Assembly (NCBI GenBank): GCA_025449975.1
Contig: JANWIG010000007.1
Coordinates: forward strand, 1 to 37,987
Length of the DNA: 37,987 bases
Direction: 5' to 3'
Source: Thermoactinomycetaceae bacterium
Lineage (GTDB): Bacteria > Bacillota > Bacilli > Thermoactinomycetales > Thermoactinomycetaceae
Of the stretch, positions 26,761-31,812 are shown one piece after another (position 1 is the first letter of the stretch; each line of letters begins with the position of its first letter). The notes beneath the pieces were generated by a model. It had not been told where the DNA came from and made no database searches. It was given only the letters and a program-made list of their open reading frames with translations. The position numbers and the translations under genes were made by a program.

Positions 26761-27489
26761 TTATTTGGGTGGTTGGGTTGGAATGGGAAGAGTGATATTT
26801 TGATCTTTTGTCCCATTTTGAAAATAATATTGTGGTACCTCTCCTACGACAACCGCTTGGGCAATCGGATATTCCGAATCAATGCTTACCACTTCTTCCG
26901 AAAATGGAACAAGAACCCCCATCTCCATTTGGACATGCATATGTAAAGTGATCATTACCATGTTGATCCCGCGCGACTCAGACTTGGGAACAAGAGTAAC
27001 CTTTGGTGCGCCCTTCGGCCAAATTTCTAGGGGAATAAAAGGACCTTTATTCGCAAACAATTCACTTTGGAAAATTTGTCCAATACTCACTTGGATTGGG
27101 CGATCTTTCAATTTGCTCAACTTTTTATATATGGCCGAAACAGTATGTGTATAGATCTCAGCTTGAATTTTTGAATCGATCTGGAAAAAGGAAGTAGAGC
27201 CATCCCCTCGTTTATCGATCCGAATGAGGTTGTTAAGATCATTGCCCAGCTCCTTATGTTCTTTAATTCCTTCCAATATGGCTTCCAGCGCCACTTTTCT
27301 CACCTCTGTTTTTGCAATCTGCACCATGACAGGATGTACTTTTTCTTCAACTATTCCTAAAAAAACAGTAACAATCAGCATAACAAATCCACCAATGAGT
27401 AAACTCCATAAAATCTTTGGATGAATACGAAGACGAATCGCCGGTAACCTGAGTGGTCGTCGACGTCGTATCCTTCGGCGATAGCGCAT
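26761..27489 (-). CDS. yunB: Sporulation protein YunB
   Basis: The 242-residue protein has a very basic N-terminus (RYRRRIRRRRPLRL), one membrane segment at about residues 28-48, and an extracytoplasmic domain. The EEKVHPVMVQIAKTEVRKVALEAI segment and the GQIFQSELFANKGPFIPLEIWPKG region are YunB landmarks. B. subtilis YunB is a mother-cell sporulation protein needed for proper spore formation. The ATG at 27489 has AGGAGGGG 5 nt upstream. In B. subtilis yunB follows lytH directly, but here 15 kb of transporter genes and others are inserted between them. Confidence 0.9.
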   Translation of the reverse strand: MRYRRRIRRRRPLRLPAIRLRIHPKILWSLLIGGFVMLIVTVFLGIVEEKVHPVMVQIAKTEVRKVALEAILEGIKEHKELGNDLNNLIRIDKRGDGSTSFFQIDSKIQAEIYTHTVSAIYKKLSKLKDRPIQVSIGQIFQSELFANKGPFIPLEIWPKGAPKVTLVPKSESRGINMVMITLHMHVQMEMGVLVPFSEEVVSIDSEYPIAQAVVVGEVPQYYFQNGTKDQNITLPIPTQPPK

Positions 27490-27572
27490 GCAATCCCCTC
27501 CTTTTACTTACAACCTATGTAAAGCGAACTATGAAATTGAGCAAAATATTGATACAATCGGAAGGAATTGGG

Positions 27573-29057
27573 GTGATTTCATTGACAATCGATCTATCAA
27601 AATATGTGTCAAATCTCGATAAAAACGTTTATGCGATCTACAATCTACCTGAGGAAGTGATCGCCGTTATTTTTGCTTATGTAAGTCGCAGCCCTTTAAG
27701 CTTCCGCGATAATTTAGCAAAATTACTAGCTGATGAAGAACTTGCAATGACCATGTCCGATCACTTCTCCGCCACTACTTTCTCGCATAAAGCAGCTCGT
27801 TTTCATGAAAAATGGGTAGTGGGTTATGGACATAGCAGTGTCGCAGAACATGCTGTCGCGCACATCGGTATTGAAAAAATCAGCCGTTTGGCTTCAGCTG
27901 AATTGGAATTAGCCAATACATTTAATAGCTTTACGGAATATAGTCAACGCTATCAGCGACCACAGCGAGGAGATTTCTACCTCCCTGTCGAGCTGCAACG
28001 GCAAGCCGAACTAAAAACCATTTATCTTTCGTTTCATAAAGAGGTTTACGACTGCTATGAAGAACTATTGGAGGGGCTACGTACATATCTGCGCAAACAG
28101 ATCCCTAAAAAATCACATGAAACGGATCGACAGTTTGCGATCCGTATTGAAAAAATCGCTTTTGAAGATGCACGCTATGTACTGCCACTTTCTGTTTTAA
28201 CCAACTTGGGGATGACAGGAAACGGACGGGCTCTCCGGGATACCTTGGTACGACTATTATCCAGTCCTTATTTGGAATGTCATCAACTAGCTAAACAAAT
28301 CGAAACCGAAGCTTCCAAGGTAATCCCTACGCTCTTAAAATATGTTCGACCAAGTGAATATCTGCTAATCACCAATCGGATGCTAACCGAGCGATTTAAG
28401 CAGCTAACGCCGAAGGAAGCTCACCCGAGTGAAGGACCAAGGGCCCAGTTTGTGGCACTTCCCGATTATAAGGAAACTCTTCAGCAGCTAGCTACTGCTC
28501 TCCTACTCCGTCAGCTTCCAATCTCTTTTACCGAAGCAGAACAGCTCGTCCGCTCATACACACTGCCTGAACTGGAACAAATAGCGACAGACGCATTATC
28601 AGAGCTACGCTTTTTTGATAATCCGATCGATGAGCTAGCCCATCTTACCTATCAAATGGTGATTACTGTTTCGGAAGCAAATTGGCATCAGCTTCTGCGT
28701 CATAATCGCAAAACCCATTTCACCTATACACGACCAACGATCCGCTTTGGCTATACCATTCCCCCGCGAATCCGTGAAGCGGGCTTAACAGAGTCATTTG
28801 AGCGGATCATCGAGGAGTCAGAGGAAGTTTATCGAAAAATCGCTGCCTTCCAACCAAACTTAGCTGCCTACTGTGTAACCAACGCGCATCATCGACAAAT
28901 TTTTGCCACCGCTTCGCTATGGGAGTTGTATCATTTGATCAACTTACGTACCTCCTCCGAAGCACAATGGGATATTCGCCAAACTTTTACACAACTTCAT
29001 CAGTCACTGGAGGAGCATCATCCTGTATTCGCTCGCTATGCTGCACGTCGGTTTTAA
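27573..29057 (+). CDS. Two-domain ThyX-like (FAD-dependent thymidylate synthase family) protein
   Basis: A 494-residue protein of two ThyX-like halves. The N-half has GHSSVAEHA (86-94) and SFTEYSQRY (119-127), which matches the SxNExSxRY part of the ThyX signature, but ANT stands where RHR should be. The C-half has RHN (376-378), then THFTYTRPT, where ExSxRY is lost, and ends with N437, R441 and LRTSSEAQWDIR (458-469), the family's nucleotide-binding end. The two halves are therefore complementary, suggesting one composite site. ThyX normally makes dTMP from dUMP with FAD as a homotetramer of about 220-250 residues. Whether this protein is an active synthase is open. GTG at 27573 has GGAAGGA 6 nt upstream; TTG 27582 and ATG 27531 are alternatives. 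Confidence 0.75.
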   Translation: MISLTIDLSKYVSNLDKNVYAIYNLPEEVIAVIFAYVSRSPLSFRDNLAKLLADEELAMTMSDHFSATTFSHKAARFHEKWVVGYGHSSVAEHAVAHIGIEKISRLASAELELANTFNSFTEYSQRYQRPQRGDFYLPVELQRQAELKTIYLSFHKEVYDCYEELLEGLRTYLRKQIPKKSHETDRQFAIRIEKIAFEDARYVLPLSVLTNLGMTGNGRALRDTLVRLLSSPYLECHQLAKQIETEASKVIPTLLKYVRPSEYLLITNRMLTERFKQLTPKEAHPSEGPRAQFVALPDYKETLQQLATALLLRQLPISFTEAEQLVRSYTLPELEQIATDALSELRFFDNPIDELAHLTYQMVITVSEANWHQLLRHNRKTHFTYTRPTIRFGYTIPPRIREAGLTESFERIIEESEEVYRKIAAFQPNLAAYCVTNAHHRQIFATASLWELYHLINLRTSSEAQWDIRQTFTQLHQSLEEHHPVFARYAARRF

Positions 29058-30177: not shown

Positions 30178-30744
30178 TCATGCTTCCTTTCTCGGTAAAA
30201 AGCGAGCTTTTCCACCCATCAATTGTTGGTATGAGGTGACCTCTGCAAGAGCTCGCTCTTCTGTCGGAATCCTCAAGAGAAGGAGAACACCCATATTTAG
30301 TAAGCTAACCACAATCGCTGTGATCCAAGCACCATAAATCAGTGGAAAGGTTAGTAATTCAATAAAGACGACCACATAATTTGGATGACGTAAATATCGA
30401 TAAGGCCCTTCTACTTGCGGTGGATGACCAGGTATAATGATAATCCTTGTATTCCAATAACGTCCTAAAGAACGAATACACCATAGCCGCAATCCCTGTG
30501 CTAGTAAAAATAGCGCAAAAGGCCACCGCCACCAAGCCGGAACCGTCGCTCCAAACAGGGAGACTTCTAGTAAAATTCCTCCAAAAAACAAAATATGGAC
30601 CAAGACCACAAAGGGATAATGCTCTTTACCTACTTCATATCCCCCCTGTGCTTCCGCCCATCTCCGATTCTTCTTAGCGATTCGCAATTCAAACAAACGT
30701 TGGATCACCACGATCAACCATAATCCCCATCCAAATTCCGTCAC
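30178..30744 (-). CDS. bpsB: Isoprenylcysteine methyltransferase-like protein (BpsB/YpbQ)
   Basis: The 188-residue integral membrane protein has five hydrophobic segments and the ICMT-type motif GPYRYLRHPNYVVVFIE followed by a C-terminal RIPTEERAL, which form the SAM site. In B. subtilis, BpsB (YpbQ) O-methylates the alkylpyrones made by BpsA, and the two genes are adjacent. Here bpsA lies just upstream, 6 nt away, on the same strand. The start is GTG at 30744, with AGGAGTG 7-8 nt upstream inside the end of bpsA. The products are probably membrane-associated alkylpyrone methyl ethers. Confidence 0.85.
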   Translation of the reverse strand: MTEFGWGLWLIVVIQRLFELRIAKKNRRWAEAQGGYEVGKEHYPFVVLVHILFFGGILLEVSLFGATVPAWWRWPFALFLLAQGLRLWCIRSLGRYWNTRIIIIPGHPPQVEGPYRYLRHPNYVVVFIELLTFPLIYGAWITAIVVSLLNMGVLLLLRIPTEERALAEVTSYQQLMGGKARFLPRKEA

Positions 30745-30750
30745 TTCTAT

Positions 30751-31812
30751 TCACTCCTGATCCCAATATAGTAGTGCCAGCTCAGAACTAAATCCAGGAC
30801 CTAACGCCGTCATTAAACCATAGCTGCCTTTGCGATGAGGCTTTTCTAACTCTTTTTTTAATACAAACAGCACCGTTGCTGAAGACATATTGCCATAATC
30901 ACGAAGCACCTCATAAGCATGATGAAACTTTTCCTCGGGAACTTCGAGCGCCTTCTGATACGCTTCCAACACTTTTCTCCCCCCTGGATGGGAGATAAAA
31001 TAATCGATTTGCCCTAGTTGGAGATTCTTTTTTTGTAAAAAACGATCGACTACAGGACGAACTTCCCGCTTAACGATCGTCGGAATATCCTTTGAAAAAA
31101 TGACTTTTAATCCATCGTCTTCCACTCCCCATCCCATTACATCCGTTGAGCGGGGCCAGATCATACTTTCTGTCGCGAGAATGCTGGGGTGATTCTTTTT
31201 TTTGTCTTTCTCTCCTGTAATCAACACCGCAGCAGCTCCATCCGAAAACAGCGAAGTAGCCACAAAATTGCTTTTGGAGTGATCCGATTGTCGAAAAGTT
31301 AAACCGCACAACTCCAAAGCCACCAATAAAACGGTTTGTTCTGGAAACGCTTTTACATATTCAAAAGCCCGCGCTAGTCCAGCAACTCCACCCGCACACC
31401 CCAATCCCCAAATCGGGGTTCGTTTAATATGGGGAGACATTTGTAATCGATTAATTAAATATGCATCCAAGCTGGGAGTGGCCAGTCCTGTTGTGGAAAC
31501 AAAAATCAAATGGTCCACTTGCTGCGGAGAGATCTCCGTTTGGGTTAGACAGCGGCGCACCGCTTCTTCACCAATCTGACAACCTATTTCCAAATATGCT
31601 TGATTTCGTTCGCGAAAGCTCCGCTTTTCAATCAACCAATCGGTAGGTTTACTAAAATGGCGGCATTTGATTGCCGTTGAGTCAAAAATAGTTAATAATC
31701 GATCCAGTTGTGGAATAGATCCAGCAAATATTTTTCTACTAAAATCACGCACTTCATCTTGCTCGTAGGCATATGGAGGTACAGCTGTTCCAATTGCAAC
31801 AATTCGAGCCAT
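30751..31812 (-). CDS. bpsA: Type III polyketide synthase (BpsA, alkylpyrone synthase)
   Basis: The 353-residue protein has a chalcone-synthase fold. The catalytic triad is C139 in GLGCAGG, H275 in FISHPGG and N308 in DYGNMSSATV. GLATPSLDAYLI and MTALGPGF are family landmarks. B. subtilis BpsA makes alkylpyrones from fatty acyl-CoA and malonyl-CoA. The ATG at 31812 has GGAGG 7 nt upstream. It is the first gene of a two-gene operon with bpsB, with a promoter TTGAAA-17-TAGAAA upstream. It is divergent from the SPOR lipoprotein gene. Confidence 0.9.
   Translation of the reverse strand: MARIVAIGTAVPPYAYEQDEVRDFSRKIFAGSIPQLDRLLTIFDSTAIKCRHFSKPTDWLIEKRSFRERNQAYLEIGCQIGEEAVRRCLTQTEISPQQVDHLIFVSTTGLATPSLDAYLINRLQMSPHIKRTPIWGLGCAGGVAGLARAFEYVKAFPEQTVLLVALELCGLTFRQSDHSKSNFVATSLFSDGAAAVLITGEKDKKKNHPSILATESMIWPRSTDVMGWGVEDDGLKVIFSKDIPTIVKREVRPVVDRFLQKKNLQLGQIDYFISHPGGRKVLEAYQKALEVPEEKFHHAYEVLRDYGNMSSATVLFVLKKELEKPHRKGSYGLMTALGPGFSSELALLYWDQE

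Follow-up and report, generated by a model that had tools for sequence, protein, structure and literature searches.

The DNA analysed here, a stretch of 37,987 nucleotides from a Thermoactinomycetaceae bacterium (hereafter the window), contains a gene (27573–29057; forward strand, as are all features of this gene given below) whose product carries two ThyX-like domains, neither of them with the full ThyX signature. This raises the question of whether such a protein could serve as a thymidylate synthase and, if so, how its active site would be built. The frame is open and encodes 494 amino acids plus a stop codon, and its assignment as a two-domain ThyX gene is based on the ORF, the Pfam and NCBIfam matches, and conservation along the full length in relatives. 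It starts with a GTG codon, 7 nt after a probable ribosome-binding site, GGAAGG (27560–27565), which was read directly from the sequence; an alternative, longer open frame for the same ORF begins at 27453. The GTG lies 11 residues before a conserved VSN, and homologues with a single possible start (L005, L010, L022, L024, and L029) start 10–14 residues before it. The Pfam profile Thy1 (PF02511) matched twice, at 27786–28331 with 111.2 bits and at 28635–29027 with 66.3 bits (cut-off 24.8), and the whole protein scored 98.4 against NCBIfam thyX (TIGR02170), above the cut-off of 87.9. Thy1 was the only family matched in the Pfam scan of the protein, in which the ThyA profile (PF00303) gave no match. 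A contiguous RHR…SxRY stretch within one domain was not found, as the N-half has ANT in place of RHR, and the C-half has no SxRY at the motif position. Because the contiguous signature is missing, the protein was filed as a ThyX variant and not as an ordinary ThyX; its dUMP and FAD contact residues are those of ThyX only when both halves are taken together. A single ORF created by an assembly error was rejected as an explanation, since the protein (P0001) and 28 homologues, 43–68% identical to it, align end to end. A ThyX split by an intein was rejected as well, since the two Thy1 matches are two separate domains, not the two halves of one.

How canonical ThyX builds its site bears on the reading of these motifs. 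In an active site of M. tuberculosis ThyX, one subunit (A) provides R95-H96-R97, which contact FAD, and R199; another (B) provides S71 and R190 at the FAD phosphates; and a third (C) provides R87, S105, R107, and the lid residue Y108 for dUMP (PMC6514825, section 9). Hence, a given canonical site receives its RHR and its SxRY from different subunits (PMC6514825, section 9). We refer to these three contributions as roles A, B, and C. The excerpt used here on PBCV-1 ThyX agrees with this, in that Gln75 and Arg182 come from one monomer and Ser88/Gln89 from another (PMC3498832). Similarly excerpted sources assign roles in catalysis to R174, S88, R90, and Y91 of T. maritima ThyX (PMC8316439), and locate H53, which matches the H of the GHSS motif, on a third monomer (PMC11940539). 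The initial annotation had described RHRx5SxNExSxRY as a contiguous signature of a homotetrameric enzyme. The signature is indeed contiguous in the chain, but the RHR and SxRY of one chain serve different sites. Since the contiguous stretch thus serves two sites of the tetramer, its separation onto two domains need not break a site.

When placed in aligned columns with M. tuberculosis ThyX, the residues of the window's protein divided between the halves according to these roles. The N-half (27573–28427, residues 1–285) is a Thy1 domain with roles B and C. Role B is represented by H87-x-S89 of a GHSS motif (27831–27839), equivalent to H69 and S71, of which S71 acts at the FAD phosphate side (PMC6514825), and by N217-G-R219 (28221–28229), equivalent to N188 and R190, of which R190 belongs to role B. 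Role C is represented by R105 (27885–27887), the counterpart of the dUMP-contacting R87, and by S119–Y127 (SFTEYSQRY, 27927–27953), in which S124, R126, and Y127 correspond to S105, R107, and Y108. Role A is lost from this half, which has A114-N115-T116 (27912–27920) instead of RHR. The C-half (28428–29054, residues 286–494), in which the ThyX fold was recognised by VIA-align, carries role A: Q373-L-L-R376-H377-N378 (28689–28706) matches Q, R95, and H96, with Asn as the third RHR residue, and R459, within L458-R459…R469 (LRTSSEAQWDIR, residues 458–469, 28944–28979), matches R199. At the position of R87, the C-half has E368 (28674–28676). In the window's protein and its 28 homologues, S119, E122, S124, R126, Y127, R376, H377, N437, R441, and R459 are invariant, A114, N115, T121, and N378 occur in at least 90%, and T116 is variable. 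The initial annotation was right that each of the two Thy1 domains lacks a different part of the ThyX signature, as seen from the double Pfam match and the aligned motif columns, and it had correctly placed S119–Y127, A114–T116 for RHR, R376-H377-N378, N437, R441, and LRTSSEAQWDIR.

The same partition was found throughout the closest group of proteins. The halves of 60 two-domain proteins were aligned together with 34 single-domain ThyX controls. Class I comprised 49 of the two-domain proteins, 38 cellular, with the window's protein among them, and 11 on viral contigs; L078 and L080 were counted though lacking N-termini as matched, and L030 (at a contig end), L032 of genome G009 (frame broken in the linker), and L033–L038 (from the same genomes as L005, L007, L010, L011, L017, and L016) were dropped from the count. 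The Q before RHR, R95, H96, and R199 were present in 49/49 C-halves, whereas R95, H96, and R199 were present in none of the N-halves, and Q in one of them. Conversely, R87, S105, R107, and Y108 were present in all 49 N-halves, whereas R87, R107, and Y108 occurred in no C-half, and S105 in one. The position of R87 was occupied by Glu in every C-half. As for role B, S71 was found in 49/49 N-halves and R190 in 45/49, with neither in any C-half; the four members without R190 (L114–L117) have Leu instead. R172 and N188 were present in all 49 N-halves and H69 in 47, the other two being truncated, and these residues recurred sporadically in C-halves (H69 in 3, R172 in 2, and N188 in 4 of 49). When text patterns were searched for anywhere in a half, RH-type strings appeared in 11 class I N-halves and SxRY in three C-halves; as the aligned columns place R95/H96 in no N-half and R107/Y108 in no C-half, we relied on the columns and not on the patterns. 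In the single-domain controls, all role residues were present (34/34), the backbone contact at 103 excepted, with the controls standing for typical ThyX: 30 of them had the best PF02511 scores, frames were picked by the RH…SxRY plus AQxE pattern, and all 34 control loci tried yielded such a frame. Another single-domain Thy1 type, outside the controls (L044, L046, L047, L049, L055, and L057), has RQWWKY or RQHWKY for RHR, so RHR is not universal in Thy1; this type occurs mostly in genomes that also have ThyA.

RHR and SxRY are about 10 residues apart and yet are found in opposite halves, and RHR and R199 are about 80–100 residues apart and yet are found together, in agreement with the canonical structure. 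Such a separation by role, and not by sequence distance, is the pattern that would be expected if selection had preserved one composite site, a reading that the alignments support. One could suppose instead that catalysis takes place in one half only, or in N/N or C/C pairs, with the other half as a structural or regulatory remnant, given that enzymes with one dead domain are generally known to be common. However, in none of the 49 class I proteins does either half alone have the full residue set, and each half by itself would be deprived of dUMP or FAD contacts, which makes this supposition very improbable.

Structure prediction is compatible with two halves acting together. AlphaFold modelled the full chain with a pLDDT of 84.3 and a pTM of 0.85 (19 sequences), with the halves packed together with confidence, and the N-half alone with a pLDDT of 60.0 and a pTM of 0.45 (17 sequences). 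In Foldseek, T. maritima ThyX ranked first, and VIA-align superposed the C-half on T. maritima ThyX 1o26_C with Z 15.1 and rmsd 2.5 over 190 residues. The listed structure matches cover the C-half only, and the N-half was assigned to ThyX by its sequence (phmmer E 6.4e-7 and profile E 1e-14 against M. tuberculosis ThyX). Prediction of the monomer, a check suggested in the initial annotation, thus gave confidently packed halves and a C-half matching T. maritima ThyX, but an N-half that folds poorly alone. The latter is in keeping with a need for the C-half, though not proof of it. Compared with canonical ThyX (T. maritima TM0449 and M. tuberculosis), the window's protein has in common the Thy1 profile, the fold of the C-half, and nearly all FAD and dUMP contacts, spread over two halves. 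However, canonical ThyX is a single-domain protein (PDB chains of 232 and 258 residues) that forms a homotetramer with four equal sites, whereas the window's protein has two diverged domains per chain, neither with the full signature.

On these grounds, we propose that the chain would pair as a homodimer imitating the D2 tetramer of ThyX. The C-half would give role A (RHR and Arg199, for FAD and dUMP activation), and the N-half would give both role B (Ser71 and Arg190, for the FAD phosphates) and role C (Arg87, Ser105, Arg107, and the Tyr108 lid, for dUMP). In a D2 tetramer, one two-fold axis maps A to B and another maps A to C; with the C-halves as A and D and the N-halves as B and C, each live site would consist of one C-half and both N-halves. 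There would then be two live sites per dimer, and the remaining two sites, having lost every one of the three roles, would be dead. The chemistry would be canonical, with the methylene passing from CH2-THF via FAD to dUMP. Consistency with D2 was rejected as evidence for this scheme, because D2 accommodates the three roles however they are divided between two sides, and the D2 geometry is thus a description and not a test. We infer that the cell's thymidylate synthase is very probably such a homodimeric pseudo-tetramer, in which two composite sites are live and the other two sites dead. Both E368 and W450 (28920–28922), the latter at the position of R190 and Trp in 47/49 C-halves, are conserved although located in the presumed dead sites.

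The genomic context bears on whether thymidylate is indeed the product. In the host genome (97.7% complete), profile searches found no ThyA (PF00303), no second Thy1 gene, no DHFR_1, and no TK, the latter being the profile to which the search among deoxynucleoside kinases was limited. None of the ten neighbouring ORFs scanned is concerned with nucleotides; they include a peptide-type transporter, YunB (sporulation), a SPOR-domain amidase, ICMT, a type III polyketide synthase, a second SPOR protein, FtsX, and an ABC ATPase. At 30178–31812, on the reverse strand, the ICMT-type methyltransferase adjoins the type III (chalcone synthase-like) polyketide synthase.

Among 61 genomes, that of the host and 60 relatives, 31 have a match to the window's protein; 30 of these matches belong to class I, among them a gene with a broken frame (G009) and another truncated by the end of its contig (G034), and the remaining one (G052) belongs to class IV. 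ThyA was found in 2/31 genomes with the match and in 22/30 without it (Fisher 5e-8), and DHFR_1 above cut-off in 4/31 and 23/30, respectively (Fisher 5e-7; sub-cut-off DHFR matches in G002 and G058 left out), values that overstate independence because the genomes are related. Within the host's own taxonomic family, ThyA was present in 1/14 genomes with the match versus 9/9 without. One of the two exceptions with ThyA among the 31, G012, has a divergent ThyA-like protein (a 101-bit match), and the other, G052, has a full-length ThyA alongside a degenerate class IV protein that lacks S105, R107, and Y108 in both halves. Single-domain ThyX also occurs in three class I genomes (G016, G025, and G041). 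Neither ThyA nor Thy1 was matched in four of the 61 genomes (G026, G042, G047, and G060; 98–99% complete, same order or class), so absence by search is not proof. In a set of 28 hand-picked genomes, mostly ones with two Thy1 matches though not all of class I, and sharing G051, G052, and G054 with the 61, ThyA was found in two, G052 and, as a 38-bit partial match, G099. The absence of DHFR fits a pattern described in the portion consulted of PMC1971073, according to which a recognisable DHFR is missing in many bacteria, most of which use ThyX. Indirectly, these gene contents point to dTMP formation by the window's protein, which would be the sole candidate found in its genome and would replace ThyA among the relatives.

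It has to be weighed whether the protein might instead be a ThyX superfamily flavoenzyme that acts on a different substrate or catalyses a different reaction, for instance a methylase of UMP or a modified nucleotide like PolB, with thymidylate coming from elsewhere. Relatives of ThyX with other roles do exist: PolB, known here from titles and the opening lines of an abstract, has the ThyX fold and is a UMP/dUMP methylase (4p5a/4p5b; PMC5003785), and a thaumarchaeal ThyX–MSRB fusion is, in the excerpt of PMC6211008, not predicted to make dTMP. The loss of S105, R107, and Y108 in the class IV protein (L120) points the same way; with ThyA and DHFR present in G052, it is a candidate for a new flavin function. 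In the window's protein, however, every FAD and dUMP side-chain contact listed in PMC6514825, section 9, is kept across the halves, except for the third RHR residue. Moreover, ThyA was not matched in 29/30 class I genomes, all except G012, and the host has no TK match either. Such a change of reaction is thus quite unlikely. The initial annotation had left the choice between duplication followed by subfunctionalisation into one composite site and a flavoprotein with a new reaction. The former is supported by the partition in 49/49 class I proteins, which matches the canonical subunit roles, and is backed by the failure of profile searches to find ThyA or a canonical ThyX elsewhere in the host genome, a check the annotation had named, or DHFR_1 or TK. 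The latter is disfavoured, since most of the 31 matching genomes yielded no thymidylate synthase candidate other than this gene.

A TK match was present in 27 of the 31 genomes with the two-domain protein, which would be in line with the gene being a decaying duplicate in organisms living on imported thymidine. However, the four genomes without a TK match (G000, G009, G046, and G056) have no ThyA match either, even at about 39% identity the catalytic residues show strict conservation, and the gene is carried by large phage-like contigs and plasmids. Decay is therefore extremely improbable. Class I genes were found on eleven IMG/VR contigs (L070–L080; ten of 93–229 kb and one of 17 kb) and on seven plasmids of Bacillus and Paenibacillus (201–229 kb; H16–H22), in which they are named only 'FAD-dependent thymidylate synthase'. 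One of these contigs and one of the plasmids, both 228841 long, are probably one element. Bacillus hosts usually have ThyA. The phage collection contained 19 matching records, none covering over 80% of the query. The collection of genome contigs yielded the protein in six thermoactinomycetes and one Symbiobacterium, plus one ordinary ThyX, and class I proteins were present in 9 more of 51 hand-picked genomes.

Several departures from the common architecture were seen. In L032 of G009, a genome with neither a ThyA nor a TK match, the frame of the class I gene is broken in the linker between the two domains, at 11 consecutive G (positions 2316–2326 of the reverse complement); this is probably an assembly indel, but may be a natural two-subunit form. 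L112, L113, L118, and L119 have long inserts rich in Ala, Gly, and Pro, both in the linker and ahead of the GHxS helix, with frames of 658–699 aa. In five genomes of the same phylum (G306, G138, G174, G207, and G283), single-domain ThyX proteins (L135–L139; frames of 387–432 aa) with the full RHR…SxRY have an insert of about 150 aa, which in L137 and L138 holds a LAGLIDADG-like stretch, LRGLFDADG, and may be a relic, now fixed, of an intein or homing endonuclease.

The two-domain proteins outside class I were assigned to class II (L127, L128, L132, and L133), class III (L134), class IV (L120), and class V (L121, L141, L142, L143, and L145). As in class I, all ten proteins of classes II, III, and V have R95, H96, and R199 in the C-half and S105, R107, and Y108 in the N-half. 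Contrary to class I, classes II and V have R87 in neither half. In class II, R190 is kept in both halves, and three of the four C-halves have Ser at 105; in class V, role B cannot be allotted cleanly to either half, with R190 in 2/5 N-halves and 3/5 C-halves. The one example of class III (L134 of G148) has RHR, R199, GHxS, and NxR, i.e., roles A and B, in its C-half, and SxRY and R87, i.e., role C, in its N-half. Class V members occur on Parabacteroides, Miltoncostaea, and Euzebya plasmids and in phage Tunturi_5. The more distant two-domain ThyX of this phage adjoins dCMP deaminase, with dUTPase two genes further, and dcd lies near the Euzebya locus.

In a tree of 26 two-domain proteins and 14 controls, in which C_IV_L120, both halves of L134, and C_I_L111 were flagged for long end branches, N-halves of classes I, IV, and V formed one supported group and their C-halves another, which fits one old duplication. 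In a second tree, without classes III and IV (19 proteins, 13 controls) and with 67 role-motif columns removed, classes I and V behaved in the same way, and all C-halves grouped together with weak support (85/58). For class II, AU tests gave p values of 0.26 for its own halves together, 0.40 for the halves of classes I and V together, and 0.63 for all N-halves together. Independent duplications proved by phylogeny were thus rejected as a claim. The trees leave class II undecided, and convergence is not claimed for it.

That duplicated ThyX exists is already known: domain duplication of ThyX in Chloroflexi was noted in 2009 by Valas and Bourne. The passage of their paper used here presents the duplicated ThyX as the only thymidylate synthase of these bacteria and as uncharacterised (PMC3224940). 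Duplication and the apparent status of sole thymidylate synthase are common to both cases; the passage is without residue analysis. In the open-access literature searched, outside which most subscription papers lie, no account of a split active site in a duplicated ThyX was found, and the excerpts used of PMC9931769, PMC10733785, PMC5954106, and PMC4913046 make no mention of duplicated ThyX. What is new, as far as the literature was searched, is that the residues are partitioned role by role, that this partition is strictly conserved and linked with missing ThyA, DHFR, and sometimes TK, and that at least one other way of partitioning occurs. The wider reading, that two fused ThyX domains have divided the roles of the active site among themselves in an obligate pseudo-tetramer with two live and two dead sites, with a similar division in other lineages and a different geometry in class III, has in our judgement about an even chance of being correct.

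If this wider reading is true, the ThyX tetramer would have been split along more than one symmetry axis. Two-domain ThyX would then be a clear example from nature of a homo-oligomeric enzyme that became a pseudo-hetero-oligomer whose shared active site is divided according to subunit role, and motif-based annotation could misjudge it as inactive. The presumed dead sites, with their conserved E368 and W450, would be worth examining for a regulatory or scaffolding function. For the organisms themselves, two-domain ThyX appears to be the thymidylate synthase of many thermoactinomycetes.
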